The notes below the pieces were generated by a model. It saw nothing but the letters and a program-made list of their open reading frames with translations. It did not search any database and was not told the origin of the DNA. Shown here one piece after another: positions 13,388-64,000 of a stretch of DNA of 64,000 nucleotides (within the stretch, counting starts at the first letter, position 1; each line of letters begins with the position of its first letter). The position numbers and the translations under genes are program-made. Origin of the DNA: Tetradesmus obliquus (taxonomy: Eukaryota; Chlorophyta; Chlorophyceae; Sphaeropleales; Scenedesmaceae); contig CP126206.1 of NCBI GenBank assembly GCA_030272155.1, positions 1-64,000 of the forward strand, given 5' to 3'.

Positions 13388-14099
13388 ATGAGCCAGGCAC
13401 CTACTGCGCCGGCGAGAGCTGGCAGCATCCCTCTGACGGGCAAAGAGAACTACAAAAGGAGAGCAGCCGCAGCAGGAACAGCAGCAGACAAGCAGGCGGC
13501 GCCAGCAGCAGCGGGGACTCTCTCTTCTGCCATGCTACAGCAGCAGCAGGAGCAGCCAGCAGCACAGCAGTCACTGGCAGCTGCAGCAGCACCGCCCCTG
13601 CTCACAGCAGCAATGCTGCCTCCTGGCACAGCAGTGCAGACTGTGGCTGGCATGGGCCAGCTGTGCCTCATCCCATTTGACACCCCACCTGAGGTGCTAC
13701 AGCTTATTGCTGACGCAGTAGCGGCATCAGCAGACTCCCTGCACAGCCCAATGTGGCAGCAGCGGGCTACAGCTGCTGCTGCTGCTGCAGCGCAGCGGGC
13801 CCAAGACACAGCAGCGCAGCAGGAGCAGCTTGCTGCAGCAGCACGGGAGCAGCAGGAGCAGCTCGCTGTAACAGCAAAGCAGCAGCAGGAGCAGCTCGCT
13901 GTAACAGCACAGCAACAGCAGGAGCGGCTCGCTGCAGCAGCACAGCAAGAGCGAGACACAGCAGACGAGCAGGCATTAGGAGCAACAGCAGCAGGCACCC
14001 CTGCAAGTGACGCACCTGCAGGGGAAGCAACCGCTGCAGCAGCAGCGCCTGATGGCGTAGATGTGGCTGACGCAGAACTAGCTGGTGCAGCAGGCGACT

Positions 14100-14136
<37 letters not shown>

Positions 14137-14224
14137 GCCCAGCAGCACCCAGCAGGAGGATCTTTCTGCTGCAGGCAGCGGCCGCTCCAGCCGCTTCACG
14201 CGGCAGCGGTCCAAAGCTGCCGGG

Positions 14225-14259
<35 letters not shown>

Positions 14260-15306
14260 AAGCAGCGGGGGCGCAGCTGGTGGCGGGGCGAAAGGCAAGC
14301 GCAGCATTGCAGAGCAGCAGCAGCAGCAGCAGGTTGAGGAGGCGGCAGCTGCTGAGGATGTCGAGCCAGTGGCCGACGCACCCAAGCGGCGCAGAACGCA
14401 GCAGCAGCAGCAGCAGGGCGAGGAGGCAGCAGCTGCTGCAGTTGATCCTCAGTCAAGCCAGCAGCAGCCAAAAACAAGGGCAGGCAAGAAGAGCAATGCT
14501 GCTGGCAGAGCAGCCAGCAGCCAGGCCGCTGCAGCTGACAAAGGCACATACACAGCAGTGGATGGGCCAGGTGGTGCTGTGGATGCACCTGCTCCCGCAG
14601 AGCCACTTCCTGCAAGCGCTGATGAGCAGCAGGAAGCAGCAGCAGCAGCAGCAGCAGCGCCTGCAGCTGCTGCCAAGGCAGGCGGCAGGGGCCGAGCAGC
14701 AGGTCGTGGCCAGCCTGCTTGTGGTAGGGGTAGGGGTGGGGGTAGGGGTAGGGGCACTGCCCCAGCAGCAGCAGCAGCAGCAGAGGCTGGTGAAGTGCCT
14801 GCAGATGAGGCGCCGGCAGCAGCTGCAGCTTCTGGTAGGCCCAAACGCGGCACTGTTCTAGTAGCAGCAGCAGCAGCAGCAGCAGCAGCGGCACAACCTG
14901 GTGAAGTGCTAGCAGCTGAGGAGCCAGCAGCAGCAGCAGCAGCAGCCAAGCTGCCAGCAAGCCGCAGCCGCCGCTCAGCAGCCAGCAGCAAGGCAGCTGT
15001 TGCTGAAGCAGGCGCAGCAGGCACTGCCGGCGCTGCAGAGCCGGGTGCAGGAGAGCCAGCAGCAGCAGCAAGCACCGGCAACGATGCCGCTGCTGCTGCT
15101 GCCAGCAATGCACCTGCTGGCCGTGGCAAGAAGCCTGCGGCAGCACCAGCAGCAGCAGCAGCAGCGTCACGCGGCCGCGGCAACAGCAAGAACGCAGCAG
15201 CAGCAGCAGACGGCACGCCTGCAGCAGCAGCAGCTGAAGACGTGCCAGTGGCCATGATTGAGGACGAGCCGGAGGCAGCAGAGCCAGCAGCAGCAAGCAC
15301 CAGCAG

Positions 15307-15342
<36 letters not shown>

Positions 15343-16446
15343 CAAGGAACCCTCAGGCCGTGGCAAGAAGCCTGCAGCAGCAGCAGCAGCAGCAGCAGCG
15401 CCATCTGCGCCACGCGCAGCACGCGGCAGCAGCAAAAAGGCAGCAGCCGCAGCAGCAGGCGGCAAGCCTGCAGCAGCAGTCGCTGCCGACGTGCCAGTGG
15501 GCACGATCGACGCTGAGCCGGAGCGCTGGCGGGCCGCATCCGAGTTCACTTCCTCTGGGGCTTGTGAGGCGGGCAGCTGCGGCCTGCCTGCTAAGGATGC
15601 TGAGCTGGAGGCTGCTGTGGCTGCTGCTGGGCTGCCTTACCTGGCGCGTGGGGCTGGGCAGTTGCGGTTGGAAGTAAAAAATCACTTCCATAAGGTGGAT
15701 GTGAACTGCGGGGCATACCAGCCGGGACATGAGACTGGCCACTCGGTCAAGCTGTACAGGCAGCAGGTAAGGGTGTGCTAGGGTTGATTGTGGTATTGGT
15801 TGCAGGTGCTTGAAGCGTATGCGTCCAACAAGGTTTTGCAGAGTAATGCTGGCTAGTGTTGGCTTGGGCTGTTTGATTAGGTAGGCTGTGGACCGCGCTG
15901 CCTATCAACCGGGGCAGCAGACTGGCCACTCTGTCAAGCTGTACAGGCTGCAGAAGAGGGTATGCTGGCATGTTGGTTGTACCTGGTTGCCAGGTGCTGT
16001 TGTCCTGAAGCTTGTGCGTCCAACATGGGTTGAGTCACTGCTGGCTCATTGTTGGCTTGGGCTGTTTCCTGAGGCAGGCTGTGGACCGCGCTGCCTATCA
16101 ACTGCGGCAGGAGACTGGCAGTTTGTCAAGCTTTACAGGCAGCAGGTGAGGGTGTGCTAGGGTTGATTGTGGTATTGGTTGCAGGTGCTTGAAGCGTATG
16201 CGTCCAACAAGGGTTTGCAGAGTAATGCTGGCTAGTGTTGGCTTGGGCTGTTTCCTGAGGCAGGCTGTGGACGGCGCTGCCTATCAACCGGGGCAGCCCA
16301 CATGGCACTGTGCCAAGCTCTACACGGAGCAGGTGAGGTCAGGGCTCTTTCATGTGCTTTCCTGCAATGCCTACGTTACTTTCCAGGTGTATCACAGTCT
16401 GTACTACTCTATATCCTCAAGGTCCACTGCCCATCTAACTGCGTAC

Positions 16447-16481
<35 letters not shown>

Positions 16482-16561
16482 GCCCTGCAGGAGGTGGACA
16501 GCCAGCTGCAGCTGGTGCGGCAGAGCAACTCCTGCCATGACTGCCCATCCAATCCTGCGTA

Positions 16562-16596
<35 letters not shown>

Positions 16597-19197
16597 CCGC
16601 CCTGCAGGAGGTGGGCGGCCAGCTGCAGCTGGTCCAGCTGAGCACATCCTGCCACGACTGCCCATCCAATCCTGCGTATTCTGCTGCTGCTGCTGCTGCT
16701 GCTGCCGCTCTGCAGGAAGTGGACGGCAAGCTGCAGGTGGTCCAGCTGAGCACATCCTGCCACGACTGCTTATCCAACTGCGTACCTCCTGCTGCTGCTG
16801 CTGCTGCCAATGCTGCTGCCACCGCCCTGCAGGAGGTGGACGGCCAGCTGCAGCTGGTGCAGCTGAGCACATCCTGCCACGACTGCCAGCACCAGCACGT
16901 GCGCTGGGAGTGCCCCACACACACCGGGCGGGGCAAGCCATCCTACTGCAACAGGTGTGGACTGGTGGGGATAGGGTGGAGTGCTGTGGGGTGCGCCTGC
17001 AATGTAGTGGGATGGGGCTGCACGGCACACACCACGCGGGCGCAATCCTGCTGCAACAGGTGCGGACTGGTGGCACTGGTTCTGCCCTTTTTCTTTTTTG
17101 CCTGGACTGTCCCTCTACTTCCAGCTCTTCACTCCATTGTATGTGGCTATGAGTGCCCCACCCACGTGGGGCGGGAGGCTCAAGGCGTCATACTGCAACA
17201 TGTGCAAACTGAGGGCTGGGCTGAGTCAAGTGGCATGGGCTTGGCTGGCTGCGAAAAGAGCAAGGGTCCGCAGCAGCAGCAGCAGCAGCAGCAGTGCCTG
17301 GATGCTTTTGATGTGTGCTGAGGTGTCTGCTACCGCTCCCTGCATGTTCCCTTTGCCTGCACACCAACCCACATCCAAGTGTTTGCCCCCACTGTGTCTC
17401 TCGCGCCGCGCAGCCGCCTGCATTACCGCTACCGCCACAGAGATTTGGTGCTCAAGGGTGTGCATTGTGTTCTACGGTGCTCACTCTCCTTTTCTGGTGT
17501 CAGACCTTGTGTTCAACCTGTTGTGGCTCATACCGTCCAAGATGGTGCCAGGACCCATATGTAACTATCCTCTCTCTCATAATTGCTTTCAGCATCTCTG
17601 GCCTGCACACCACCTCGCACCTATGTGTGTTTGCCACCACTGCTGTTTGCCACCACTGCTGCCACCACCACCGCATGACTGTGCCGCAGGTGCCTGCACA
17701 TCCGCTACCGCCACACTGCTGCCAGCATCGCAGACCTGCACACCACCTCACATCTGTGTCAGTTTGCCCCCGCCGATGTTTTCTTCACTCGCCTGGATTG
17801 TTTGCTCGCCGCAGGTGCCTCCACAACCGCTTCCGCGCCACCCCCTTCAGCATTGCGGACATGCACGCCTCCTGCCCGCTCTGCCGCGGCATGTGCACGT
17901 GCAAGAAGTGCCTAAGGCAGCCTGAGCACGCAGGCAGGCTGCCCACTGGCCTCTACTTGCAGGATGCAGCGGCGATGCGTGTTGCCGGGGGCTATGTGGT
18001 TCGTACAATTGGCGGCTGTCTGGCTGAGTGGCTGGCGGCGCAAGATGCTGAGGTGGGTTGGTGACCGTTTTTGAGAAAGGATAGTTACATGTGGGTCCTG
18101 GCACCATCCTGGTTTGATGGTGTGACGGGGATACCCGGTGTGACAGTCTGCTGCCTGGTGTGGCGGCTGTGTGGGCGTGTGGCTGGCGGCGCAGGATGCG
18201 GAGGTGGGTTGGCGAGGGTTTAATGGTTTGACGGGGATGTGATAGTCTGCTGCCTGGTGTGGCTGCTGTGTGGGCGAGCTGCTGGCAGCGCAAGAGGCTG
18301 GGGTCGGCTGGCGAGGTGTGTACATGGTGTGCCGGTCTGCAATTTGGTGTGGCTGTCTTGCCGAATGGCTGGCGGCGCAGGAGGCTGAGGTGGGTGCTGT
18401 CGTGTGGATAGTTCAAGTGGCAATGTGCTGCGTGGCGTTTTTGGGTGATGTGTGTTGTGTGGGTGCGGGCATGGCAGCGGAAGCTGAGGTGGGCTGGTGC
18501 GCGGGGTGGGGCGGGTGATGGCCTCCCACCTGGCGAATGTATCATGCCCATATTGTGACCTGGTGCAGGTGGCTGGGGTTGTGTGGGCAAGTGGCTGGCG
18601 GCGCAGGTGGCGGAGGTGCGCTGGCGAGGGTTCGTGGGCGTGGCGGCGGCGCATAAGGCCAAACTCTTTAAAAACAAAAAAAAACATTTGTTCGATTTTT
18701 GAGGTTGGCGCTGGCTGCTGATGTGGCGGCGGGGGTGGTGTGGCAAAAGCGCAGCATGCATGATGCTTGCAGAGTCATTGCTGCATGCTGCTGCGCGCCT
18801 CCCCTCAGCGCTGTCTTGCGTAAACATGTGCATGCTGCTACTGCTGCGCCTGCCGCTGCTAAGAGCGTGCTGCAGGCAACGCTGCTGTGCCTGTGGAGGC
18901 GATGCTGGACCTGTTCACAACGCCCCTGCAGCAGCTGCTGCTGCTGCTGCTGCTGCTGCTGTACCCTGTTGCTGTAGGCGACTGCTGCCGGCTTTGCTGC
19001 GCTTGAGGCCGTGCCTGTGGAGGTGATGCTGCACCTGCTCGCAACACCCCTGAAGCTGACTTATCATTTGTCTGCTGCTGCTGCAGGCGGCTGCTGCTGC
19101 TGCAGGCGGCTGCAGCCGGCTTTTCTGCACTGTAGGCTGTCCCTGTGGAGGCGATGCTGCACCTTATAACGAGACTCCTGCAGCTGATTATCCTTTG

Positions 19198-19259
<62 letters not shown>

Positions 19260-19748
19260 AGGCGTCGTCTGCCGGCTTTGCTGCGCTGGTGGATGTGCCT
19301 GTGGAGGCAATGCTGAACCTGCTCACAACACCCCTGCAGCTGACTTATCCTCTGTCTGCTGCTGCTGCTGCTGCCGCTGCTGCACCCTGCTGCTGTAGGA
19401 GTATGCTGCCGGCTTTGCTGCACTCGAGGCTGTGCCTGTGGAGGTAATGCTGCACCTGGTAACAAGACTCCTGCAGCTGATTTCCCATGTGCCTGCTGCT
19501 GCTGTTGCTGCAGGCGTCTGCTGCTGGCTTCCCTGACCTGGAGGCCGTGCCTGTGGAGGTGATGCTGCACCTGGTAACGAGATTCCTGCAGCTGATTTCC
19601 CATGTGCCTGCTGCTGCTGTTGGTGTAGGCGTCTGCTGCCGCCAAGTGCGTGCTGCAGGCAACGCTGCTTCGCCTGTGGAGGTGATGCTGCACCTGCTCA
19701 CGACACCGCTGCAGCTGACCACTCCTGTGCATGCTGCTGCTGCTGTAC

Positions 19749-19783
<35 letters not shown>

Positions 19784-20841
19784 GGCAGGCATTTGCTGCC
19801 GGCTTCTCTGCACTGCAGGCTGTGCCTGTGGAGGTGATGCTGGACCTGCTCACAACACCCTTGCAGCTGACTTATCCTCTGTCTGCTGCTGCTGTAGGCG
19901 TCTGCTGCCGGCTTTGCTGAGCTGGAGGCTGTGCCTGTGGAGGTGATGCTGGACGTCCACAACACGCCTGCAGATGACTTATCCTCTGTCTGCTGCTACT
20001 GCTGCTGCTGCTGCTGCTGCTGCTGTAGGCGTCTGCTGCCGGCTTCACTGACCTGGAGGCGGTGCCTGTGGAGGTGATGCTGGACAAGGAGCGCCTCAAC
20101 TGCGACAGGTGAGAGAGGGCTGCAGGTTGGCCCTTGAGTCTTGCCCTTGATATCCTTGCAGCATGGTGTGTTTTGTTTTTTTCTGCAGAGGCACTAGAGT
20201 ACTGGTACAAGGATGATCCTGCACTGCAGGCACAGCCGCAGCGCTGCCAGCATCAGCAGGGCAACGCTGGTTGCAGCTCTCCCAGCACATTTGTGGCACC
20301 AGCTGCCCTCGTCAGCACTGTGACAGGCAGCAGGTTGGTTGTGCTGCTGCCCCTATGGACGGCTACCTGTCGAGTTGCGCTTCAACTGCACCCTGGCGTA
20401 TGCTCTTATGCTGCGCTGCCAGCATATTCGAAACACCTGCTGCTAGCATATGTGTGATGCGGCTCCTGCGAGTGATCTTTCCTGCTGTGCTGCTGTTATG
20501 AGGAACTGCCGTCTTAATTGACCTAAATGAACATGTTGTGCTCTATCTGCTGCTGCTGCTGCTGCTTCTGTTGAGGTGTGCCACCAACCTGGTTGGGCTG
20601 GCAGCGCACTGCAGCAGCTGCGAGTGGGACCTGTGCACCAGCTGCATGCAGGAGCTGCGGCAGCAGCAGCAGCAGCCAGATGGCGCTGCTGCTGCTGCTA
20701 TTGCTGCCAGCAGTGCTGGGAAGTTTGAGTGGACGTGCTGCAATCCAAACTGCAGCGCGCCGCAGCAGCCGGCAACACCACCCACGAAGCGCCAGCAGCA
20801 GCAGGGTGAGGCAGCCGCTGCTGCAGGCCCTGCTGGCGATT

Positions 20842-20881
<40 letters not shown>

Positions 20882-23079
20882 CAGCCCTGCCAGCCCAACC
20901 AGGAGCAGCAAGCGCCAGCGCAGGCTGACCCAGAAGCTGAGGGACAGCCTTGACCCAGTGGCAGCCACAGGCCAGCAGGCCATGCAGGAGCCAGAGCAGC
21001 CAGTGGCTGCTGCTGCTGCTGCAGCCACAGCAGCACAAGGCGCGGCGGCTGCAGCAGCAGCAGCAGCGCCCGGCTGCAGCGAGCACGTGCACGGCAAGGC
21101 GCTGGGCTGCCTGCCTGGTGCTGCTGTGCTGGAGCTGCGGCTGCTGCTGCCGCAGGACCTGGTGGCTGGTGCTGCTGATGCTGCTGATGCTGCTGCTGGT
21201 GGTGGTGGCGAGGCAGTGCCAGGGCAGGCAGCGGCAGTGCTGCAGCAGCTGAGGGAGGTGGCTCAGGTGAGAGGAGTGTGGTGCGCAGTGTCTGTCATAG
21301 GTGTAGAGGCTGCAGCCAGGCTGCATGAAGCTCATGCCGTGCTGTGCACAAGGAAGGAGTGGGTTGTGTGAACCTTTGGGCTTGGGCAGGCAGCAGCAGT
21401 GCTGCATCAGCTGCAACCCGCAGCCGTGACCCACCACACACGCCGACAGTCCGACTGTGCAACATGCACTGAGCACTGCCGCTGCTGCCGCTACCGCCCC
21501 CTCCTCTTGCTGCTTTGCGCATGCAGGCGTATGCCGAGACTGCTGACCAGCCGCAGCTGTCAGACTGCCCCCTGCTGGCCCTGGCCGGGCCCCCTGAGCT
21601 GCAGCATCAGCTGCAGCAGCGGCTGGCCAGCCTGGCCTGCCCTGACGGCTCACCGCTTACCTTGGATCTGCTGCTGTCTGAGCAGTGGTGGGCGGTGCTG
21701 CCTGCTGCTGTACGTGATGTGTGGCGGCGCAAGGCCAACAGCCGCGTCTGGCTCTTCACGCCAGCCGCCAGCGACCTGGAGTTACAAGCAGCAGCAGGTA
21801 GTGAGGCAGATAGGGCCGCAGCAGCAGCAGCAGCAGCAGCTGGGGGTGATGATGATGGTGGGCTGGCGGCTGTTGACCGGCTGGCGTGGGCGCTGCTGGT
21901 GTGGTGGGCGCGCTGGCTGGAGGGCGACCCCATCATCGTGAGGGAGCTCAAGGTAAGGCTGGGAATGGGTTGCTGCTGTTGAAACGTGTTTCTTTTGCTG
22001 CTTTAATGCTGGCTGGCTGGCAACATCCATCATCGTGAGGGACCTCAAGGTGCGGCTGGGCGTCATGTTGTGGCAACCGCATGTGTTTTATCCCGTCCAT
22101 CCTTTTCAACTGGCAAGTGAACCCATTATTGTGCGGGAGCTCAAGGTGCGCTGTTGCGTGGGGTTGCATAGTTGACATGTATTGTTTTTTTTGGTTTGTT
22201 TGCTTGGGGGCGGGCGACCCCATCATCGTGCGGGAGCTGAAAGTGCGGCTGGGCATGGGTTGCTGCTGTTGCAGCGTGTTTCTTTTGCTGCTTTAATGCT
22301 GGCGGGCGGGCGACCCATCATCGCGCGAGACCTCAAGGTGCGCTGTTGCGTGGAGTTGCATAGTTGACATGTGTTGTGTTTGCATTGATTTGTTTGCTTG
22401 CGGGCGGGCGACCCCATCATCGTGAGGGAGCTCAAGGTGCGGCTTGACTTCATATTGCGGCAACCGCTTGTGTTTTGTGCCATGTGGTGCTGCTGGTGAC
22501 ACTCATGCTGCTGCTGCTGCTGCCGCGCTCAGGGCCGCATCCCCGCGGACCCCGAGACCATGCCGCACTGGTGCTGCTGGTGACACTCCTCCTGCTGCTG
22601 CTGCCACTGCTGCTGCTGCCGCCGTGTGCAGGGGCACAATCCGTGGGACCCCGACACCTTGCTGCACTCGTGCTGCTGGTGACACTTCTGCTGCACTGGT
22701 GTTGCTGTTGACACTCCTGCTGCTGCTGCTGCTGCCACTGCTGCTGCCACTGCTGCTGCTGCTGCCGCTGTCAGGGGCTCATCCCGTGGGACCCCGAGAC
22801 CATGAAGCGCGCGCTGGCTGAGGGCAAGGGCAGCCTGGACCAGCGTGCTGCTGCTGCTGCTGCTGCTGCTGCCGCTGCCACTGCTGCTCCTGCTGCCGTG
22901 TGCAGGGGCGCATCCCATGGGATTCTGACACCATGCTGCACTAGTGCTGCTGGTGACACTCCTGCTGCTGCTGCTGCTGCTGCCGTGTGCAGGGGCACAT
23001 CCCGTGGGACCCCGAGACCATGCTGCACTGGTGCTGCTAGTAACACTCCTGACACTGCTGCTGCTGCTGCTGCTGCTGC

Positions 23080-23119
<40 letters not shown>

Positions 23120-24761
23120 GCTGCTGCGGTCAGGGGCGCATTCCGTGGGACCCTGAGACCATGAAGCGTGCGCTGGCTGAGGGCAAGGGCAGCCTGGACC
23201 AGCGCGTGGAGATCATCAACTGCGTAGATTTCCACGTGGACGAGAGCATCAAGCCAGCCGCCTTCTTCACGGGGTGAGTGTATAGTATAACACATATTTT
23301 GTGTGTGTGCTTGCCGGATTTGGCGTGGACCAAGCCGCCAAGCCAGCAGCCTTCTTTCCGCGCTGCTGCTGCTGCATGACTTGCGTTTGATTTCAGCCTC
23401 GGATGTTTTGGTGAGGTTTGAGTGTGCCACGATCCACGTGGACCAGCGCGTGGAGATCATAAAGGCGCCAATTTTCACGTGGACGACGGCATCAAGCCGG
23501 CTGCCTTCTTCACGGGGTGCATGTTATGATTTGCGTGTGTGCTTGCTTGGCACGTTTGGTGTTGAAGCAGCAGCGCGGACCCAGCCATCAAGCCAGCAGC
23601 CTGCTCTACGGGTGCGCGCAGCTGCGTTTGGTTTTAGTCTCGGATGTTTTGGTGGGGTTTGAGTGTGCGGTGGTCCATGTGGACGCGCGCGTGGAGATCA
23701 TCAACTGCGCCGACTTCCACGTGGACGAGAGCATCAAGCCGGCCGCCTTTTTCACGGGGTGAGCGTTCCAATTTGCGTGTGTGCTTGCCGGATGTAGTGT
23801 TGACCAAGCCGCCAAGCCGCCAAGCCAGCAGCCTTCTTTCCGCGCTGCGCGTGTCTTCTGCTGCCTGACGTGTCTTGCGTTTGGTTTCAGTCTCAGATGC
23901 TTTGGTGGGGTTTGAGTGTGCCGCACTCCACGTGGACCAGCGCGTGGAGATCATCAACTGCGCGACTTCCCCGTAGACGGCAGCATCAAGCCGGCTGCCT
24001 TCTTCAAGGGGTGTGTTTGGCGTATCTGCCGCATTGCTTGCGTGCGTGCTTGCCAGTTGTGGTTTTTAAGCGGCATGTGGCACCCTTCACATGGAAGGCA
24101 TCATCAAGCCCGCAGCTTGCTTCACGGGGTTTGCGAGCTTCTGCTGCATGTCTTGCGTGTGTGCTTGCCGATTATAGGTTTGAAGCAGCAGTATGGCGGC
24201 TTTCATGAGGACAGCAGCATCAAGCGCGCTGCAACCCTTTGCTGCATTGCCTCAGGCAGCCGGCAGCCTTCTTTACTGGTGCACACTGCAGCAGGCAACA
24301 GAGGCATGGACTGTGCCGGCTTTGCATCGGCGAGTTTCTCTAGCACCGCAGGTTGCTGTTTTGGTGTATCTCAAGTACAGCATGCGCCGCACTCACCCCT
24401 AAACTGTGCCGGCTTTGCTTCCGCTAGTTTTGGCAGTACCACAGGACGCTGCTTCGCTGTGTCTAAGTACAGCATGCGCCGGACTCGCCACCTTGCCTTG
24501 CAAACCACGCCCTGCTTCGAACCGCCTCCAACCCAAACAACACCAACCCGTATCATCAATTTCTGTTTGCAGCTACGCCAAGGGCTTCTGGCGCGGGCCC
24601 AACACTCACCACCTTGTGTTGCACAGCCGCGCCCTACCTTGCACCGCCTCCCACCTGCTTTGTCAACTGCCTTGCAGCTACGCCAAGGGCTTCTGGCGAG
24701 GGCCCAAGGGAGGCGCCTCCAGCAGCGCAGCGGCGGCTGCTGCTGCTGCCGGCGGCGGCGG

Positions 24762-24793
<32 letters not shown>

Positions 24794-25733
24794 CTGAGCC
24801 GCTGATGCTCAAGGTGAAAGACTGGCCGCCAGGGCAAGACTTCAGGGGCGAGCTTCCGCGCCACATGATGGTGAGAAGGGGCACTGTGGGCACCTAAACT
24901 CTTTGCAGAGAGGTGGTTTATGTTGGCCAGTGGGCGTTGCCTGCTCCCATGATGGTGGTGGTGGTGGTGGGCCGGGGCCGTTGCCCCTCACATAATCATG
25001 AGTAATCCTGCCGCCTGGCTCTGCTGCTGCATCAAGACGCTGCTTCATCACTCTTTATTGGTTAATTCATAATGAGGCTGCTGCTGGGCCTACAGCAACC
25101 CCCGGCTGGGCCGCACGCCTGTCGACGTCCCTTCTGCTTCACCTTGTTTCAATTGGTGGCCCCTGCATGTCTGTTGTTCCCTGCAGGATTTCATCGAGCG
25201 GCTGCCGCTGCGCTTCTACACCGACCCCCGGCTGGGCCGCGGGCCGCTCAACCTGGCCAGCATGCTGCTGCCTGCTGACAACCCCACAGACCTGGGGCCC
25301 AAGGGATACCTGGCCTACGGCAGGTGGGCTGAGGTTTGTCTTTCAGCATGTTCTGCTTCACTGCTGTTGCTGCTGCTGCCGGCCGAAACCCCCACATACC
25401 AAGGGATCCCTGGCCTACGGCAGGTGGGCTGAGGATTGTCTCTGTCTTCCAGGCTCTATCCACTTGGTATGTGCTGCTGGCCAGCATGCTGCTGCCCTCA
25501 GACAACCCCACAGACCTGGGGCCCAAGGGCTACCTGGCCCACGGCAGGTGGGCTGAGGTTTGTCTGTTTCTCCAGGCTCTATCTACTTGGTTTGTGCTGC
25601 TGCCCAACATGCTGCTGCCCGCTGACAACCCAACATACCTGGGGCCCAAAGGGACACCTGGCCTACGGCAGGTGGGCTGGCGTGTACGTGGTTGAGGTTT
25701 GTGCTTCAACATGTCCTGCTCGGTTGCTGCTGC

Positions 25734-25792
<59 letters not shown>

Positions 25793-27574
25793 TTCGGCAA
25801 CCCCATAGGCCTGGGGCCCAAGGGGTACCTGGCGTACGGCAGGTGCGCTGTGCTGTATGTGTGTGCGTCACTCAGCTCTATGCTGGGCAGCTGCTGCTGC
25901 TGCTGTTGCTGCCTGCTGACAACCCAACCGACCTGGGGCCCAACGGATACCTGGCGTATGGCAGGTGGGTTGTGCTGTGTGTGTTCAGTGTGTGCGTCAC
26001 TCAGCTCTTTGCTGGACAGCTGCTGCTGCTGCTACTGCTGCTGCTGCTGTTGCTGTTGCTGCCTGCTGACAACCCCACAGACCTGGGGCCCAAGGGGTAC
26101 CTGGCCTACGGCAGGTGCGCTGGGTGTACGTGGTTGAGGTGTGTACTTCAACATGTCCTGCTCGGCTGCTGCTGCTGCTGCTGCTGCCATTTGGCAACCC
26201 TACAGACCTTGGGCCCAAGGGGTACCTGGCTTATGGCAGGTGGGTTGTGCTGTATGTGTTCAGTGTGTGCGTCACTCAGCTCTTTGCTGGGCAGCTGCTG
26301 CTGCTGCTGCCTGCTGGCAAACCAACAGACCTAGGGCCCAAGGGTCACCTGGCCTACGGCAGGTGGGCTGAGGATTGTCTGTGTCTTCCTGGCTCTGTCC
26401 ACTTGGTTCGTGCTGCTGGCCAGCATGCTGCTGCCCTCAGACAACCCCACAGACTTGAGCCGAAGGAATACCTGGCGTACGGCAGGTGGGTTGAGGTTTG
26501 TCTTTCAGCATATCTTGCAAGATAGCAATTGCTGGGTCGCTGCTGCTGCTGCTGCCGTTGGCCGATGACGCCGCAGATCTGCGGGCAAAGGCTATTTGCC
26601 ATGTGGCAGTTGGTGGGTGATGTTTCTGGTATTTTGTATCTGCTGCTGCTCACTGACAACCCCGCCGACCTTGCGCCCAAGGGATACCTCGCATACGGCA
26701 GCAGTGCTGTGCTTTGGGGCTTGCTTGTGCTTCCTGTTGATGTTGGGGTTTGCCCAGAAAGCATCTGAGGTTGGATCTGAATGCGTCAGCCGTGTCAGGG
26801 ACCTAGATCTTGACAGCTACCTGGCATACGGCAGGTGGGCTGGCGTACGGCAGCGCTGGGGCAGCGCACCATACATCACTTTGCAGGTGCTGCTGGTTGT
26901 GGATGACAGCAACTGTGCAGGGCTGTCTGTTGTGCTGCTGCGGTTTATGTGGTTGTGTCGGCGACAGTAAGCCTAGGCTAGGGCTGGCAACTTTGCTGGA
27001 AGCGTGGCCTCACACACATGAACCGCATGTAGTCAGTGCTCCACGTGCACCTCTGCACCTCACAGCGCAGCACGCGTGCAGCAGTGACGGCAGCCAGGCT
27101 GTCACTGCATGCTATTGTGGAGGACGAATTTAGTATAGTGTGCCATGGTGTGGCGCGCCACTTGTCACAAATTTAAGCACTGGCATGACACAGTGCTTCC
27201 GAACTTTTGCACGCCGAATTTTTGTGCGCCCTGAGGCTCAACCACTGACTGGCTTCGTAGTAACGATAGCGCTGCTCTCGGCTGCCCAAAGCCTGCTTCA
27301 CATACGCTGCTGCTGCTGCTGCTGCTGCGCCAGGTGGCGCGAGTGCTCTGGCGAGGGCGACACTGGTACCATATTCATGTGCCGTGCAGTCCGGGCCGAA
27401 CTCACAAAGCAATGCCCTGCGTTTCTTCCTGCCGTGCTGCTGCTGCTGCTGCTGCGCAGGTGGCGCGAGTGCTCTGGCGAGGGCGACAGCGTGACCAAGA
27501 TGCACGTGGACATGACGGATGCTGTGAACATCCTCGTGGACCAGCAGCCGGGCGGCGATGCGCTGCAGCGCGGC

Positions 27575-27610
<36 letters not shown>

Positions 27611-33355: not shown

Positions 33356-33398
<43 letters not shown>

Positions 33399-35107
33399 AG
33401 GGCTGCACTGCTGGAGCAGCATGGCGTGGAGCTGCTGCACTTTGAGCAGCACAACGGCGAGGCAGTGTTCATCCCTGGCCTGTGCCCGCACCAGGTCAGG
33501 AACCTGGCCAGCTGCTGTAAGGTGAGGCAGGGAGAAATTGCTACAGTAATGCTGCTCATTGTTGCATCAGCTCGAGCCGCAGTCCAGCAGCAGCAGCAGC
33601 AGCAGCAGATGTGTTACAGCAAGGGTCAGGCGGCTGGCGGCTGCGCGCACCAGGCCAGCAACCTTGCAAGCTGCTGCAAGGTGAGCGGGAGGGCAGTGTT
33701 GCATGGTGCTGCCTTGTTGTATGGTTGGTGTATAGAGCAACGGCAGGAGCAGCGGGGTCGCGGCAGCAGCAGCAGCAGCAGCAGCTGTGCAATAGCAAGA
33801 GTGGGGAGGCTGGGGCATGCCGTCTGTTGCAGCCGGGGCTCCTGCACCAACACAAGTGCTGCCACGTGCATGCTGCTGCTCAGGCAAACACAGATGATGG
33901 TGTGGTGTGGCTGGTAGTGTTTGCACCTGCCTGTCACAGCAACCGACAGCAAACATGGTATCCGGCGAAACTGTCCATAGACGTCAGGCAAGTGTTTTCC
34001 AAGCCCCCATCAGCAACTGTTTGCTGTTCACAATCCACCCAGCTCCACTGTCTGTGCTTTCTTGTGCATGCGCCTCACTGCTGCTGCTGCTGCTGCGCAG
34101 ATCGCGGTGGACTTTGTGTCGCCGGAGAACATGGCCACCTGCTTGGCGCAGCGCGAGACGTGGCGGCAGCTGGACCTGGCGGTCGGGCAGCCCACGCTGA
34201 CAGGAGAGGTGAGCTAAGCTCACTGAGCTTTACACACATTGTTGGCTGGAGGTATGCTGTGCTCTGCCTGTGCTGCGGCAGCTGGGCCTGGCCTGGCGCT
34301 TGGTCAGCCTATGCTGACGGCAGTGTTGAGCACGGTCGGTGGTGGTATGTGCTGTCATGGCTTTTGCTGCGGCTGCGTGTGATGTGGCAGCCGGACCTGA
34401 CGGTAGGGCAGCCCACGCTGACGGGAGAGGTGAGCCGTGTGCTGCCTCTGGAATGTGACGTTATTGGTTGTGTTGAGCGGCACTCTATGCAGTGGACCTG
34501 GCTGTGGAGGAGTTTACGCTGACTAGAATGGTGAGCTAGGCTGGTTGTTTGCGTTGATGGCTATTGTTTGCTGCTGGCAGCGAGTGCTGCTGGCACATGT
34601 GATGCGGCTGCTGGGCCTGGCTCACGGGTACATCCCACTCCACTGGATGGGGGAGGTGAGGTGCACACAGCTTCTTGCTGCTGTTCAGTTGCGCGGCCAT
34701 GCGTTTTCCCTGGGCAATTTGTGGAATGTGAACGGCTGATGTTGTGGGCTGAAGCGCAGGCAGGCGCGTTGGTGTGTTGTGACGCGCACAGGCATGTGTG
34801 TGTTTAGCAGAGCTCTCAGGGGTGTGCCAGCGGTGCTCGGCAAGCAGCTTTTGGGCTTGTCATGCTGTGCATGGGCTGACACGCAGCTGGTGAGCCAGGG
34901 ATAGCCAGCGCAGGGCACTTCTGGTGGTAGCGTCTTGGCACGGCAGGGTGCACCGCTGCATGCAGCTGCCCGCACTTCCAGCAACAATGTCCATCCTGCT
35001 ACTGTTGTTGCTGCTGCTGCTGCTGCTGCAGGACGCGCCCGAGCCCAGGGAGCGCGAGCACGCTGAGAAGCTGCAGAGCCAGCTCATCCTGCTTACTTCT
35101 GGCTTTC

Positions 35108-52788: not shown

Positions 52789-54941
52789 AACGTGTGCGTG
52801 GAGGCTAACCAGGCGAACAGGCAGCTTGCAGAGGCCGATGTACTGCATCCAGCGAGCGTGTGGCACAGGCGCTCGCAGCGAGTGGCGGTTCAAGGCAATC
52901 AAGTGAAGGTGATGGCGGACAACGCCTGGACGCCGGTGTGTGACCTGTGAACAGCATGTGAGGTGTAGCTTGACGTCACTGCCGCCATTGCCAGGGCTGA
53001 CAGTGTTGGTGTATTTACTGGTGTGCCGGTGCCATAGGTTATGGGCTGACAGCCCCACTTCATCTGTGTATCTTATCCTGGCTACAAGCTTGCTGGCTAG
53101 CATTGCTTTGGTGTTACACCAGCCAGTGGCGTGCTGCACCTTTGTGGTGCATCTTTGTGGTGCGGCAATGGTTGTGCATGGGCGTTCTAAGAATTACGCA
53201 GGCCGACTCAGGTGCGAGTTGAAAGTTGGGTCAACTTGAAGTTGAAGTTTCGCACAGCAATGACAGTCATCATGATGGGAGTTGCACATTGCAGAGGTGA
53301 AATGTATGCTCCAAGCAGTGTTTGTGGAACTGTGTGCGGCTATCACCCGTGCCGACGGTCCAACTCAAGTCGTGGGCCAGATATGGCAGCTCTTACGCAT
53401 CTGCTGTTCAAGGGTGATGCTGTATAAGAACGACTTTACTGGCTGTTTCGGGACGCGGCGTTGGGGCGATGTACATGAATGTGAAGGAGCGGCCGCCAGT
53501 GGCAGCAGCCTGCAGCATGCTGTGAAGCAGCAGCAGCCGGCGGCAGCAGTGGCCGCGTGATGCAGCGGGTGATGGGGAGGGTGCGTGCTTGCTGGACGCA
53601 CAGTACGCGGGCAATGCTGCAAGAAAAGCGCAGGGCAGGCCGTAAAGCCTACAATGTTGTTTCTGTATGGCGGCCGCTAAAGATTGTAACTGCTTGGTGA
53701 CTGGGCCACCATCTACACCAAGGCAGGGGTGTATGTGATCTTTAATTAGCGGCAGGGGGCTAAACATGACCTGCTGGCAGCAGCGATGGTGGCTTGATGA
53801 TTCATCGATGATTGCCGCTTGGCTTGATGAGTAACATGATGATGATGATGATCGATGATTGCCGCGATCACAACTTGAGCGGCTGTGGCAGACTGGGCTG
53901 GCGCGCACTGCGATCAGGGTTGCCACCAACAGCAGCAGGGTGGACTTCGGATTGTTCCATTCGCGCTCACCGACATTAAAGGCTTTTGTTTGACACTGAC
54001 AGTGGTGCAGGAGACTTCTTGGCACATGGTGATGGCTCAGCCAGCTGTCCGACAGCACCGCGTCAAGTGCGGCAGGCACGTTTCTGTTACTGGCCATGTT
54101 GAGGTGCAGGCTACAAGTTACTTGATGAAATGATGGTAACAGGTGGTTATCCATGTGATTGTCATAGCATGTGCGGACGCCATTTCTGCAGGATGGTGTA
54201 CCGCCCCCAGGCAGTCACTGCCACTAAGTGGCTTCTGAAGGGGCAGCAGCAGCAGGCCCAGTTGATGAGCGCGACGAAAACAGGTGGCCCCATAGTAAGT
54301 TTTTAAAACCATGTGAAGTGAACGTCTTAACCCCGAACAAGCACTTGCATGCGCCAGGTAAAGCAACAGGGCGTGTCAGATTCAAATTTCGAACAAACCG
54401 CCCCCTCAGGCCATACTGTGGCTCGCCCGCAGATTCTGCCATCGAACACCACAAAAGAGATCTTCAACCGGGTTGTGTGGCGAGTTTCGAATTTATGCGC
54501 CTCATCAAAGCCCTCCTCCGTACCTCAGTAGCACGCCAGGTGGTGGTTGAGCACAGGACTTCGCAGCCATCTCACTGGTAGCTACAGTGCCTTGTTAGTG
54601 AGTTGATCATACTTCGAAGATCATCCTCGGCTGCTAAGGTGCAAGCTGGGCGAGCAGGAGAAGCCGTTGAACATGGCTGATTGTGAAGGTGCGCCAAAGC
54701 AACCGCTGGCACATCTAGGGGCACGCTTGGAAGCATACATGATCTGGTTGAAGGTATTTGGCGTGTTATAACGTGATATCGTCGAGCATCCTTGCGTCAG
54801 CGCCAGGTGTCACCCAATAAGCAGTAGCAGCAGCAGCAACCTCAGCACCAGCAGGGGCAAGTGCAGCTGAGTGCGAAACTAGGCAGGCGTCAACAACGCT
54901 GCTCATCACAAGTGCTGCGTTTATTGTTTTTCTTCTTGCAG
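52789..54941 (+). other. Mostly non-coding, with two weak coding candidates
   Basis: A frame at 53282-53560 (ending in a Gln/Ala tail) and one at about 54349-54531 look somewhat protein-like but have no recognised domain or secure splice partners. They could be 3' exons of the preceding gene or remnants. 53820-53870 has a small ATGATG tract and a repeat of CGATGATTGCCGC. Nothing else is supported. Confidence 0.3.
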
Positions 54942-56419
54942 AGGCACAGCAGTCAGTACTGCTGCAATCGCCAGTGCTGCCCCTGCTGCTGCACCACAGC
55001 AGCATACACACAGACCTGCACACAATACTGCGGCTATGCGGCACCAGCAAGGCCATCCGGGCAACAGTGCTGCAGCTGTGCAGGGGCTTGCTGGATGTCA
55101 GCTTTGCCACCAGCAGCAGGCGGCAGGCGCAGCGCTTTGCGGCGTGGGTTGCTCAGCACGGGCAGCTGATGCGTGCCCTGCGCATCAGGCCTGGCATGCA
55201 CCACACCCACGCAAAGATGTACGGCATCTGCCGCACACAGGCAGAAGCGCAGATTGAAGCGGCACTCAGCTTGACAGCAGCCGCGCTGCTGCAGCTGCAG
55301 TCACAGGGCGAGCAGGGCGGCCTGCAGCTGGCGGAGCTGCAGCTGCCGTCTGTCGGCGCTGCAGCACACAGCGTGCTGCAGGCTCTGCCTGCCAGCACGC
55401 TGCACAAGCTGACCGTGCGAGAGAGCTTCACCGTTGCACGCCAAGCCAGCGTTGATCCCGGCAGCCTTGCGGTGATGCGCCAGCTGCAGTGCCTGTCGAT
55501 CAGTCCCGTGGTGCATTTGGAGCAGCTTCTGCAGGTGCTCCCAACGCTGACGGCATTGACGCGGCTGGACCTGCGTTGGCACTGCAGCGGGTGGCCCCCT
55601 TCCCTGCAGAGGAGTGCAGCAGAGCAGTTCAGCGAGTTGCTTCCAACGCTACCAACACAGCTCAAGGAGCTGCACTTTTCCCAGCATCAGACTTATGATC
55701 TGCCCCCGCTACTGCAGCTGGCGCACTTGACAGCGCTGACCAGCCTGACTGTGAGCTACGCAGGCGCAGATTCGCAGCTGCCGCGGCAGCTGCGGGCACT
55801 GGCGATGACAGCGGCGCGCAGCATGGGCCCAGTGCTCGCCTGCACGCAGCTGCAGCAGCTGCGCCTCCGCCGCAGCGAAGCAGATGCAGCGGAGCTGAGC
55901 AGGCTTGCGGGCCTCTCCACCCTCACCCACCTCGCTATTGAGTACGAGTTGCTGCACGGCTCACGCGGCGCGGCGGCTGCAGCGGCGGCGGCCTGGCCGC
56001 TGCTTGCAGGTCAGCTGGTATCGCTGCGCATCCGGGACGCGCAGGCGGGGCGCATGAGTGCGGCCTCGCTGCTGCAGATACAGCAGCTGTCGCGCCTTAC
56101 GTGCTTGAGCATCGAGTGGAAGCGCTGCATCGTGCACGACGGCAGCCCTGCGCTGCCGCTGACAGCTACTGAGCTGGCTGGTGTGCTGGCAGCACTCAGT
56201 GAGCTGCGCACGCTGGAGCTGAGCACACAAGATGGGCGTCACCCGCTGCTGCTGCCCTACAGACCAGCAGCAGCAGCAGCAGCAGTTGGGGTGGCAGGTG
56301 GTGGGCATCAGCAGGCAGGTGTGTTGCAGCAGCAGCCTGCTGCAGCAGTAGCAGCAGCAGCGGTGGGTGTGGCAGGTGGTGGGCAGCAGCAGGGAGGTGG
56401 ACCGCAGCAGCAGCCTGCT

Positions 56420-56457
<38 letters not shown>

Positions 56458-57483
56458 TGTGGGTGTGGCAGGTGGTGGGCATCAGCAGGCAGGTGGACCG
56501 CAGCAGCAGCCTGCTGCAGCAGTAGCAGCAGCAGCGGTGGGTGTGGCAGGTGGTGGGCAGCAGCAGGGAGGTGTGCCACAGCATCAGCCTGCTGCAGCAG
56601 CTGGCGGCCAGCATGTCCTGCTGCAGCATGCAGCAGGGCATATTTGGGCGGCGCTACCTCAAATGCTGCACCCGCAGCAGCAGCCAGCTGCAGTTATTGG
56701 CGGCCAACAGGCCATGCAGCAGCATGCAGGGGGGCTAGGATGGCTGGGAGCACCTCTACCGCTGCACCTGCAGCAGCAGCAGCACCCTGCACAGCTGAAT
56801 GCAGTTGTTGGTGCGCATCAGCTGGCAGTTCTGCCACAGCTGCAGCCGGCCGCAGCCGCCGGTGGCCAGCAGGTGATGATGCAGCAGCAGCAGCAGCAGC
56901 CAATCGGGCATGTCTGGGCAGCACCACCTCAACTGCTGCACGCACAACCTCCACCAGCAGCAGCAGCAGCAGCAGCACCGGGTGTGGAAGTTGCTTGGCA
57001 TCAGCTGGCAGGCGTGCCGCAGCAGCAGGCATTTGCAGCAGCTGGCGGACAGCAGGTCATGCTGCAGCTGGCAGGGGGCCAAGCCTGGATGGTGCCCCCT
57101 CAACTACTGCAGCAGCAGCAGCAGCAGCAGCCTGCACAGCTCATTGCGCATATTGGCGGGCATCCGCAGGCAGCTGGCCAGCAGGCAGGTGGCCAACCAG
57201 TCATGCAGCAGCATGTAAGGGTGCTGGGGTTGGTGGTGCAAGTTCAACAGCTGCACCCGCAGCAGCAGCAGCAGCAGCCTGCGCAGCATAATGCAATGGC
57301 CGGGCAGCAGCAGGCAGTTGGGCTGCAGCAGCAGCCAGCCGCAGCAGCTGGCGGCCAACCAGTCATGCTGCAGCATGCAGGCGGCCAAGCCTGGGTGGTG
57401 CCTCCTCAACTACTGCAGCCACAGCAGCAGCCTGCACAGCTTAATGCAGCCATTGTTGAGATGGGCCAGCTGTGGCAGCCCCA

Positions 57484-57522
<39 letters not shown>

Positions 57523-58105
57523 CGCGTTGGTGCATGAGCTCGAGCTCGACGCCCCCCGTGCCCCAGCCATGCGCATGCTGCCTGTCACTCGCGCCATTGC
57601 CGGCCTGCCCCACCTACAAAGCCTGAAGCTGAAGTGCCCCGGGCTGGGGCCTTGCTGCGTGGACCCGCTGACTCAACTCACGCGGTTGAGTCGCCTCACC
57701 ATCTCGGGGCCTGAGTTTGATGACGAGGCGTGCATCAGCCTTGTGCTCAGCCTCACTGGCCTGCGGCGGCTCAGCTTGGCCGGTGATGCATCGATCAGCG
57801 ATGTGAGCCTGGTGGCCATTTCCAAGGTGCTGACTCCGCTGACGGAGCTGAAGCTGCACAACTGCCGGGGGCTGAGTGAGCGCGGGTTTGCGCAGCTGAC
57901 GCGGCTGCGGCGGCTGCGGCTGCTGTGGGCGGAGCAGATTGATGAGGAGATTGAGGAGGTGGCGGCGGCGGTGCTGCGGCACACGGCGCGCGTGCCGGGG
58001 GACGATGATGATGTTGATGGTGGTGGTGGCGGTGGTGGTGGTGGTTATGAGTATGATGCTGACTTTGATGGCTATGAGGCTGCTATTGATGGCATTGGTT
58101 GGTGA
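54942..58105 (+). CDS. F-box/LRR-like protein with a large Gln/Ala-rich insert
   Basis: The frame is open from a good acceptor (TTCTTGCAG, ending 54941) to the stop at 58105, about 1050 residues. The upstream exon and true start were not found; no ATG near the beginning is convincing. The N-terminal ~60 residues look F-box-like (I-L-R-L-C-G-T-S-K-A-I-R-A). They are followed by LRRs (L-x-x-L-x-L pattern) to about 56230, a low-complexity insert (56259-57520), then further AMN1-like LRRs (L-T-R-L-S-R-L-T-I-S-G; L-R-R-L-S-L-A-G). The end is acidic and Gly/Tyr-rich. F-box/LRR proteins usually recruit substrates to SCF ubiquitin ligases, but the F-box match here is weak. Confidence 0.7.
56259..57525 (+). 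repeat. In-frame repeat insert within the LRR protein
   Basis: First come four units of ~65-120 bp encoding V-G-V-A-G-G-G-(H/Q)-Q-Q plus Ala/Gln runs (56278-56580). Then follow about six looser ~65-residue repeats with G-G-Q-x-V-M-L-Q-H-A-G-G-x-A-W and P-P-Q-L-L. A (CAG)n run ends the block at 57485-57522. The frame is kept throughout, so the insert is probably translated. Confidence 0.9.
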
Positions 58106-61522: not shown

Positions 61523-61574
<52 letters not shown>

Positions 61575-61655
61575 AGCTGCCGGCAGATCGCGTAGCCATG
61601 CAGGGCGCCACCGCGCAGATGGCCATGCGCATCCTCTGACCTGACGTACTGCCGC

Positions 61656-61694
<39 letters not shown>

Positions 61695-62555
61695 ACCGCG
61701 TGGCCATGCAGGACGCCACCGCGCAGATGGCCATGCTGCAGTTCATCAGCAGCGGTCTGCCCAAGACCATGGTGCCCTCCACCATTCACTGCGACCACCT
61801 CATCGAGGGCACCACCAGCCCACAGCCTGACAGGTGCGGAGGGTATCTATTGCTAGCAAGGCTAGCTTGGTGGGGTTTCGAGGGGCTTGGCAAGCAGCCA
61901 TGCATTGCACTAATGTTGCCCTCCATCATCCACTGCGACCACCTGATTGAGGGCACCACCAGCCCACAGCCTGACAGGTGTGCAGGGTTTAGGGTTTGGG
62001 TTTATAGGGTTTTAGTGGTGCATTGCCTCCAGCGGTGCATGGCAGCAGCAGTGCCCTCCACCATCCACTGCGACCACCGGGGGGCACCACCCCCCCACAG
62101 CCTGCCAGGTGCGATCTGTGTTAGGGTGTGTGTGTCGCAAGCAAGGCTAGTGTATTCAAGGAGTTTGCAGGCAGCTGTGAAATGCCATGGTGCCCTCCAC
62201 CACCCACCGCAACTGCAGCTGCACTCAGCGAGAGGCACCAGCTCCGCACAGCCTGGCAGGTGTAGCTGCATGGCAGGTGTAGCTGCATGGCAGGTGTAGC
62301 TGCATGGCAGGTGTAGCTGCATGGCAGGTGTAGCTGCATGGCAGGTGTAGCTGCATGGCAGGTGTAGCTGCATGGCAGGTGTAGCTGCATGGCAGGTGTA
62401 GCTGCATGGCAGGTGTAGCTGCATGGCAGGCAACTTGCGCCAGCTGAGAGGCTGTTGCAGCACCTAGCAGCAGCAGCCATTGCTTTGCAGCCAAATGTGT
62501 GGGCGGCAGGCTGGCAGAGGGCTGGAGACATGCAGCAGGGAGATGCTGGAATGCC

Positions 62556-62596
<41 letters not shown>

Positions 62597-64000
62597 CACC
62601 CCTGCTGGCACCCAAATCGTGAACGCTGCTGCTGCTGCCGAATCAGATAATAACATTTCTGCTGCTTCGTTTTCATCTGTGCTGCAGGGACAACTCGTTC
62701 GATGGTGAGGCCGACCTGAGCCACGCCAAGGACGTGAACGCTGCCGCTGCCGCTGCCGCCAAATCAGATAATGACATTTTTGCTTCTGTTGACTCATTTG
62801 TGCTGCAGGGACAACTCTTTCGGTGGTGAGGCCGACCTGAGCCACGCCAAGAACGTGAACGCTGCCGCTGCCGCTGCCGCCAAATCAGATAATGGCATTT
62901 TTGCTTCTGTTAACTCATTTGTGCTGCAGGGACAACTCTTTCGGTGGTGAGGCCGACCTGAGCCACGCCAAGAACGTGAACGCTGAGGTCTACTCCTTCC
63001 TGGCCAGCGCCGGCGCCAAGTACGGCGTGGGCTTCTGGAAGCCGGGCAGCGGCATCATCCACCAGGTGATTGTCATTTCAATGTTATTGTGTTATAATGT
63101 CATGTGCATTGTTTGGTTCGGCGCCAAGTACGGCGTGAGCTTCTGGAAGCCGGGCAGCGGCGTCATCCACCAGGTGATTGTCATTTCAATGTTATTGTGT
63201 TATGTCGTCATGTGCATTGTGTGGTTTGGCGCCAAGTACGGCGTGGGCTTCTGGAAGCCGGGCAGCGGCATCATCCACCAGGTGATTGTCATTTCAATGT
63301 TATTGTGTTATAATGTCATGTGCATTGTTTGATTTGGCGCCAAGTACGGCGTGGGCTTCTGGAAGCCGGGCAGCGGCGTCATCCACCAGGTGATTGTCAT
63401 TTCAATGTTATTGTGTTATAATGTCATGTGCATTGTTTGTTTTGGCGCCAAGTACGCCGTGGGCTTCTGGAAGCCGGGCAGCGGCGTCATCCACCAGGTG
63501 ATTGTCATTTCAATGTTATTGTGTCATAAGGTCATGTGCATTGTTTGGTTTGGCCAAGTACGGCGTGGGCTTCTGGAGGCCGGGCAGCGGCGTCATCCAC
63601 CAGGTGAATGTCATTTCAATGTTATTGTGTTATGACGCCATGTGCATTGTTTGTTTTGGCGCCAAGTACGGCGTGGGCTTCTGGAAGCCGGGCAGCGGCG
63701 TCATCCACCAGGTGATCGTCATTTCAATGTTATTGTGTTATAATGTCATGTGCATTGTTTGGTTTGGCGCCAAGTACGGCGTGGGCTTCTGGAAGCCAGG
63801 CAGCGGCGTCATCCACCAGGTGATCAGCACTACAATGATGATAATATGTACCATCTTTATCACTGGATGCTCGACGACCTGCGGCAGGTTGCTTCCGCCT
63901 GAATGACTGCTGCCTGAATGACTGCTTTGACAGCTTGCTTGGCAGCCAGCGGCAGGCTGATGCTGTTCTGCTTTCTGCATGCTTGCCGAATGAACTGCTT
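60193..64000 (+). CDS. ACO2: Mitochondrial aconitate hydratase, 5' part (partial)
   Basis: Exons in matching phase: 60193-60234, 60308-60361, 60435-60506, 60589-60633, 61198-61273, 61695-61833 and 62930-63065, giving the first ~188 residues. The rest lies beyond the window. The start [14 protein letters not shown] is a typical short basic transit peptide. Family blocks are unmistakable: [44 protein letters not shown] and [18 protein letters not shown] and H-C-D-H belong to the active site. Aconitase interconverts citrate and isocitrate in the TCA cycle using a 4Fe-4S cluster; the cluster cysteines are not yet reached. The full enzyme is usually ~780 residues. Confidence 0.93.
61198..61440 (+). 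repeat. Donor duplication (V-S-Y-L-K-L-R-P tail)
   Basis: The exon tail GTGTCATACCTCAAGCTGCG ends at 61273 and is repeated at about 61407-61432 with a damaged donor (CCCAAGTAAC). Confidence 0.85.
61585..61715 (+). repeat. Acceptor duplication ([11 protein letters not shown] head)
   Basis: A first copy (GGCAG|ATCGCGTAGCCATGCAGG) lies near 61587-61640 and contains an in-frame stop. The intact head starts at 61695 after a CTG tract and CCAG. Confidence 0.9.
61749..62260 (+). repeat. Donor array, 4 copies ([10 protein letters not shown] tail)
   Basis: The intact tail ends at 61833. Copies end near 61978, 62108 and 62260, each followed by GGTG. Decay increases with distance: copy 2 changes one residue, copy 3 loses the L-I-E segment, copy 4 is badly altered. 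Confidence 0.92.
62255..62430 (+). repeat. 17-bp minisatellite built on a 5' splice site, 10 units
   Basis: GGCAGGTGTAGCTGCAT repeats 10 times from 62255 with no divergence, plus a partial unit at 62425. It begins at the GGCAG|GTGTAG edge of the fourth donor copy. Confidence 0.96.
62680..62970 (+). repeat. Acceptor array, 3 copies, exactly 121 bp apart
   Basis: GTGCTGCAG|GGACAACTC-type heads start at 62688, 62809 and 62930. The first two run to A-K-(D/N)-V-N-A and then to a GCTGCCGCTGCC tract. The third continues to the full exon. Confidence 0.96.
63013..63822 (+). repeat. Donor array, 8 copies, 108-bp period
   Basis: The tail [12 protein letters not shown](I/V)-I-H-Q|GTGA ends at 63065, 63173, 63281, 63389, 63497, 63603, 63711 and 63819. 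One step is 106 bp because of a 2-bp loss. The other half of each unit is the first ~55 bp of intron. No acceptor AG precedes copies 2-8, so the array is a series of alternative 5' splice sites. Confidence 0.97.

Follow-up and report, generated by a model that had tools for sequence, protein, structure and literature searches.

Intron gain by tandem duplication has been described for exonic AGGT segments, the duplication of which gives birth to a new intron (PMC3443670, PMC4974935), and for the RdRp gene of potato, in which a single tandem duplication over an intron-exon boundary produced a new intron in that one gene (PMC4974935). Short internal gene duplications that include exon-intron structure are attributed in PMC4974935 to Gao and Lynch 2009. 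The window analysed in this work is the first 64 kb (positions 1-64,000, forward strand) of a 4.41-Mb contig (CP126206.1) of the chlorophyte Tetradesmus obliquus (assembly GCA_030272155.1; 104.66 Mb in 17 contigs). Much of the sequence of its long introns consists of tandem copies, each holding part of the adjacent exon together with its splice site, and this pattern extends beyond the window. Boundary-crossing duplication is known singly; the present density is new. No report of introns built genome-wide from edge copies was found among the titles and abstract beginnings listed from the open-licence literature on intron gain and growth, which is weak evidence of novelty.

Introns were defined via protein homology in the genes for KDM3, aconitase and adaptin and in ten TCP-1/cpn60 loci, on ten contigs. 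The TCP-1/cpn60 loci were located by a genome search with Pfam profile PF00118, which gave 76 exon matches; eight of these were put aside as copies, since the same profile positions were repeated. Junctions were set by using reading frame, splice consensus and profile spacing; 39 neighbouring match pairs were tried, one of which had no valid junction, and in the CCT-delta locus (L032) pairs starting from one read-through match were skipped. The five adaptin introns were hand-picked; a minority of the adaptin and second aconitase places was covered, and the RNA polymerase stretch L036 contributed no intron. An early set of 57 introns was reduced to 54 after three doubtful ones had been dropped; results refer to the 54 introns unless the early set is named. 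The donor of CCT-delta had initially been placed on a copy, and the final edge-copy counts use the corrected donor.

Copies of an exon edge were found in 30 of the 54 introns (donor edge in 22, acceptor edge in 22, both in 14) and amounted to 68 donor-edge and 43 acceptor-edge copies, with up to 11 per edge. The copied dinucleotide was retained in most cases (GT 63/68, AG 41/43). Donor-edge copies lay in the intron downstream of their own exon and matched the preceding exon (21/54), and acceptor-edge copies lay in the intron upstream of their own exon and matched the following exon (22/54); copies on the wrong side were absent for donor edges (upstream, 0/30) and acceptor edges (downstream, 0/30) alike, as counted before the CCT-delta correction. 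Inverted matches within the own intron were seen for 0/54 donor and 2/54 acceptor edges. The first, sequence-only reading of the window had proposed tandem units that straddle exon-intron borders, with donor arrays extending downstream and acceptor arrays upstream of the intact exon and splice dinucleotides often kept, and these counts bear it out. Self-matches that touch introns were direct in 279 cases and inverted in 14; among local self-matches (<3 kb) in 337.6 kb of sampled sequence the numbers were 803 and 8. Neighbouring junction copies were separated by 87 bp or more (median 132 bp); 81 of the 111 spacings fell within 80-160 bp and none below 80 bp. A period that is a multiple of three was tried as a rule and rejected, the remainders 0, 1 and 2 showing no more than a weak lean (45, 37 and 29). 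Within the intron, the median relative position was 0.41 for donor copies and 0.78 for acceptor copies (57-intron set).

Intron length follows the repeats. The 18 repeat-free introns have a median length of 336 bp and a maximum of 614 bp, and repeats are present in every one of the 20 introns above that length. Of 39,327 intron bases, 20,905 (53 %) lie in repeats, and length correlates with the number of repeat-covered bases (rho 0.83). These data support intron growth in this genome largely via tandem duplication.

The exon-proximal pieces yield intact proteins. For aconitase they gave a gap-free alignment of 355 residues to a solved aconitase (E 8.3e-181) across six introns, five of which bear copies. 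In KDM3 (window 21.5-34.2 kb) the joined pieces match human KDM3B through the JmjC region, in an alignment with gaps (E 2.6e-35), and a Pfam match to JmjC was obtained. A CCT-alpha peptide that spans an intron with four donor copies and one acceptor copy is gap-free to the two CCT-alpha chains shown. Ten junction peptides from copy-bearing TCP-1 introns, one of them derived from a copy (CCT-delta), match the Pfam profile, with equal spans in six and spans off by 1, 1, 2 and 5 in the others. By the protein homology of KDM3, aconitase and CCT-alpha, the remaining copies are predicted to be intronic. The arrays in the window are as follows.

21912-22482, forward strand: KDM3 intron 21953-23133, donor-edge array, five copies of a unit that ends its exon part with GAGCTCAAG and continues with GT
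22524-23205, forward strand: same intron, acceptor-edge array, five copies, ending at the intact exon 23134-23273
23195-24233, forward strand: KDM3 intron 23274-24677, donor-edge array, four copies
24567-24708, forward strand: same intron, acceptor edge, one copy and the intact edge of exon 24678-24870
25253-26843, forward strand: KDM3 intron 25324-27459, donor-edge array, 11 copies of a unit that ends its exon part with GGCCTACGGCAG and continues with GTGGGC
27331-27498, forward strand: same intron, acceptor edge, one copy and the intact edge of exon 27460-27660
27518-29220, forward strand: KDM3 intron 27661-32151 (4491 bp), donor-edge array, four copies
30140-32234, forward strand: same intron, acceptor-edge array, 11 copies, ending at exon 32152-32337
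32276-32981, forward strand: KDM3 intron 32338-33400, donor-edge array, two copies by the final count
33187-33453, forward strand: same intron, two acceptor-edge copies, ending at exon 33401-33521
33475-33686, forward strand: KDM3 intron 33522-34100, donor edge, one copy
62624-62985, forward strand: aconitase, acceptor-edge tandem array, period 121, three copies (outside the 54-intron set)
63012-63824, forward strand: aconitase intron 63066-64199, donor-edge array, period 108, seven copies beyond the intact edge; the intron passes the window end

Donor and acceptor copies are both present in five of the seven KDM3 introns examined, in agreement with the proposal that most introns of this gene consist of a donor array and an acceptor array. 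At 28386-30120, midway along the longest KDM3 intron, about 1.7 kb of TG/CG-rich alternating sequence is visible by eye. In the KDM3-type gene, a zf-4CXXC_R1 zinc finger is likewise encoded by the predicted exon chain, approximately within 15039-21500. At 62254-62430, probably inside an aconitase intron, a 17-bp unit with AG/GT in each repeat occurs 10.4 times.

Loci with edge copies comprise KDM3, aconitase and seven of the ten TCP-1/cpn60 loci; by the final count there was no edge copy in the TCP-1/cpn60 loci L029, L030 and L031 or in adaptin. The claim that every long gene carries such arrays was therefore too broad, the more so as 54821-58102 is a stop-to-stop frame of 1094 codons (with LRR matches below the curated cut-offs). 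Beyond the curated genes, 19 random stretches of 10 kb were drawn, 17 of them covered in full and one in half, in which introns were predicted by using a gene finder and are noisier than the curated set (67 predicted introns from the random samples, 188 in all). In the random samples edge families were present in 24 of the 67 predicted introns and interior families in five. The first version of the gene finder placed both sites exactly in 52 of the 54 curated introns, although it had been trained partly on them. The version used for the samples had been retrained on its own output and called some copies exons, as in aconitase, which is a warning for annotation.

The nearest known systems differ from these introns in several respects. 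As with AGGT-segment duplication, a local tandem duplication supplies extra splice sites and leaves the protein unchanged; here, however, existing edges are copied, the intron lengthens and the donor and acceptor in use are not a duplicated pair. The potato RdRp duplication is alike in that the tandem unit crosses the acceptor edge (intron end and start of the next exon), and a unit that crosses an exon-intron border was found in 30/54 introns, but here many events at donors and acceptors have built arrays. Unlike internal gene duplication, half-exons are kept in introns, and by protein homology the copies lie within single introns. Duplication of a whole exon with both splice sites was not found in the set: a second splice signal stood at the far end of 6/68 donor copies and 0/43 acceptor copies, compared with 0.17 and 0.08 at random points. 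Introners (PMC9860276) are alike as a lineage-wide change of intron content; unlike introners, no copy was seen to be shared between genes. When the 54 donor probes were compared with a random intron taken from a different gene, none matched, and part of the aconitase array, searched against the genome (a search prone to miss repeats), matched that array alone; near-identical sequence dispersed over many genes was not seen.

A copied site often equals the used site in strength. Scores at least as high as that of the used site were obtained for 42/66 copied donors and 17/42 copied acceptors, and strength alone therefore cannot decide which site is used. Protein homology would imply use of the site nearest the exon irrespective of strength, and splicing probably selects by position; exon definition would pick the innermost sites, and intron definition would not. 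No special process is needed to explain the orientation of the arrays, since use of any donor but the first, or of any acceptor but the last, would alter the protein. Coding use of the copies was rejected: 20 of 23 indels in exon parts shift the frame, the second splice signal is rarely present and inclusion of a copy would be in frame without a stop in 4/66 donor and 4/42 acceptor cases. Selection against copied splice sites was not seen either, the splice dinucleotides mismatching at 7/221 positions and so half as often as codon positions 1 and 2 (confidence interval (CI) of the ratio 0.16-0.96; 57 introns); copied dinucleotides may even be slightly better retained. Tandem donors and acceptors in housekeeping genes constitute a natural experiment on splice-site choice among equal neighbours.

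On balance these observations are best accounted for by random local tandem duplication filtered by selection on the protein, which we consider the probable explanation. Short segments would be duplicated frequently and locally (edge copies are mostly 80-160 bp apart), with breakpoints roughly indifferent to exon borders. A duplication within an exon would usually break the protein, and one within an intron would be neutral; one across a single exon edge would be neutral if the exon-proximal site, whether first donor or last acceptor, continues to be spliced. With every event that survives, the intron would lengthen and gain a half-exon copy whose splice site looks functional. The arrays would look edge-centred as recognisable exon sequence keeps edge copies visible longest. 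Splicing would have to choose by position, given how often copies match the used site in strength, and this would fit exon definition. As to the duplication itself, Schiml, Fauser and Puchta (2016) reportedly found tandem duplication at adjacent nicks in plants, which would give short direct tandem duplications; by unit sizes alone this is a candidate here, and fill-in at paired nicks is a guess. Intron growth can be followed stepwise in this genome, since for each array the protein tells which edge is the intact one: edge-copy introns show how growth in small steps can occur, and they make one ask how the correct splice site is still selected.

The divergence of the copies resists the neutral-decay part of this explanation. 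The ratio of nonsynonymous to synonymous divergence (dN/dS) between the intact edge and the nearest copy was 0.18 (CI 0.13-0.24, 44 arrays), compared with 0.53 in a simulation with a constrained intact edge, a neutral copy and the observed intron spectrum; between adjacent copies it was 0.27 (CI 0.21-0.32). In older donor copies the exon parts had diverged less at codon positions 1 and 2 than a simulation based on the intron flanks gave, by a factor of about 2 to 4.5 (the youngest bin fits that simulation), and changes that create a stop made up 4 of 278 nonsynonymous changes (about 10.6 expected). All of these weigh against simple decay of the copies, and neutral decay as a full account is weakened by the dN/dS values and by the decoupling of exon part and intron flank. 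By gene, dN/dS was 0.14 for TCP-1 (CI 0.09-0.22), 0.15 for aconitase (CI 0.09-0.27) and 0.37 for KDM3 (CI 0.23-0.70); KDM3 alone is compatible with neutral decay, and TCP-1 and aconitase are not. In CCT-delta the peptide GGASPEVEVGYQLSKWSKTLR is unchanged in all six copies that end in the searched 12-base word, and the nearest copy shows 11 synonymous differences and one nonsynonymous difference. Why half-exons inside introns should show so low a dN/dS is a puzzle in itself. The sequence-only reading had further stated that coding content decays with distance from the intact edge, a trend that appears weakly: the nearest copy was less diverged than the farthest in 14 of 21 arrays (two ties), and its exon part was longer in nine, equal in seven and shorter in five.

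Such values could mean that the copies are maintained and do not decay, by conversion or unequal exchange with the exon edges or by selection, both evolving in a protein-conserving manner. The low ratios, the exon parts decoupled from their flanks, the constant CCT-delta peptide and the reduced mismatch of splice dinucleotides speak for maintenance. Mismatches, on the other hand, were not clustered as conversion tracts would be (p 0.10), and gene conversion was accordingly rejected as proven; simple two-way conversion should, by reasoning, not lower dN/dS below about 0.5; and the frame-shifting indels (20/23) and absent second splice signals fit a maintained coding segment poorly. The closest sister copies (14 pairs) look neutral, with 65/638 differences (0.102) at positions 1 and 2 compared with 61/533 (0.114) in intron sequence, although position 3 stands at 52/319. 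Copies with a separately detectable intron flank (46/108) also fit neutrality, with a divergence at positions 1 and 2 of 0.72 of the neutral expectation (CI 0.41-1.07). We hold maintenance to be a rather unlikely alternative. The same reserve applies to its wider form, in which exon edges and intronic copies would make up a shared, exchanging pool: introns would grow by duplication of their edges, the copies would stay protein-conserving through exchange with the intact edge or through selection and would not simply decay, and splicing would read the innermost sites only.

Random duplication filtered by selection also has to be weighed against a hotspot at the edges, in which junctions would be preferred duplication sites (by routes such as CTG-repeat acceptor tracts, chromatin or transcription-linked breaks) and introns would grow from their edges. 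At face value edge families are in excess, and these counts tell against breakpoints that are indifferent to exon borders: 50 of 62 families were at edges, compared with 31.3 +- 3.6 from geometry (57 introns); 21 of 23 when a match of at least 90 % identity was required, compared with 11.5 +- 2.1 (57 introns); 20 of 30 among two-copy families (10.8 +- 2.2 expected); and 93 of 111 in predicted introns, compared with 62.2 +- 4.8 if a starting intron of 300 bp is assumed. Families of at least 95 % identity were at edges in 9 of 10 cases (3.6 +- 1.5 expected; 57 introns), an identity that may come from the exon part, and families with at least three pairs in predicted introns numbered 20 at edges and four in the interior. 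In simulation, edge copies can be recognised for longer than interior copies, which we take to account for much of this excess: at a divergence of 0.20 per lineage detection was 0.525 for interior copies and 0.775 for both edge kinds, and at 0.25 it was 0 for interior copies, compared with 0.575 and 0.225 for the edges. The caveat that interior duplications would be harder to see was thus well placed. When exon sequence was removed, so that both classes were compared by their intron part only, the curated introns had 20 edge and 10 interior families, the 67 random predicted introns 3 and 4, and all 188 predicted introns 12 and 10; the curated counts speak for the hotspot and the predicted ones against it. 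The removal took 18/46, 22/29 and 66/93 edge families, respectively, from view.

Straddling by a tandem pair was no commoner at edges than in the interior. It was found at 20/54 donors and 15/54 acceptors, with an interior mean of 0.31 and a difference between edge and interior of 0.01 (CI -0.06 to 0.08), although interior points are partly straddled by copy-copy pairs from edge events, which makes the comparison less than wholly independent. In random predicted introns the values were 7/67 and 13/67 (interior mean 0.16). The exon share of the unit was broadly spread around one half (57 introns). Any preference for edges would be modest and is not proven, and a true hotspot seems unlikely. Of the proposal that introns grow by duplication of their own edges, growth that is largely tandem, with many units that include the own edge, stands; the edge as a special growth point is not supported. 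Although repeat-rich regions are a known assembly hazard, an assembly artefact (collapsed or expanded repeats) is very improbable: the copies differ from one another and carry indels, unrelated genes show the same pattern and lie on several contigs, and the proteins spliced from the exon-proximal copies are intact.

The window starts with CCCTAAA telomere repeats, and four near-identical 225-bp tandem units lie near the telomere at 815-1710. Its GC content is 0.60, compared with mostly 0.53-0.59 in the genome samples, and the sequence is CAG-rich; the published values for Tetradesmus obliquus are 109 Mb, GC 57 and a mean intron of 462 bp (PMC5966456). A 29-bp minisatellite at 44882-45794, with higher-order units of 215 bp, has a donor-like CAG/GTGAGG in its unit, which is much shorter than the units of the edge arrays. 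A 274-bp satellite (14.45 copies) occupies positions 1-3959 of one random internal sample (L022). Among young tandem arrays in 32 stretches (337.6 kb), 9 of 27 had a copy-number fraction of 0.4-0.6, possibly by chance; simple duplication would give whole numbers of copies.

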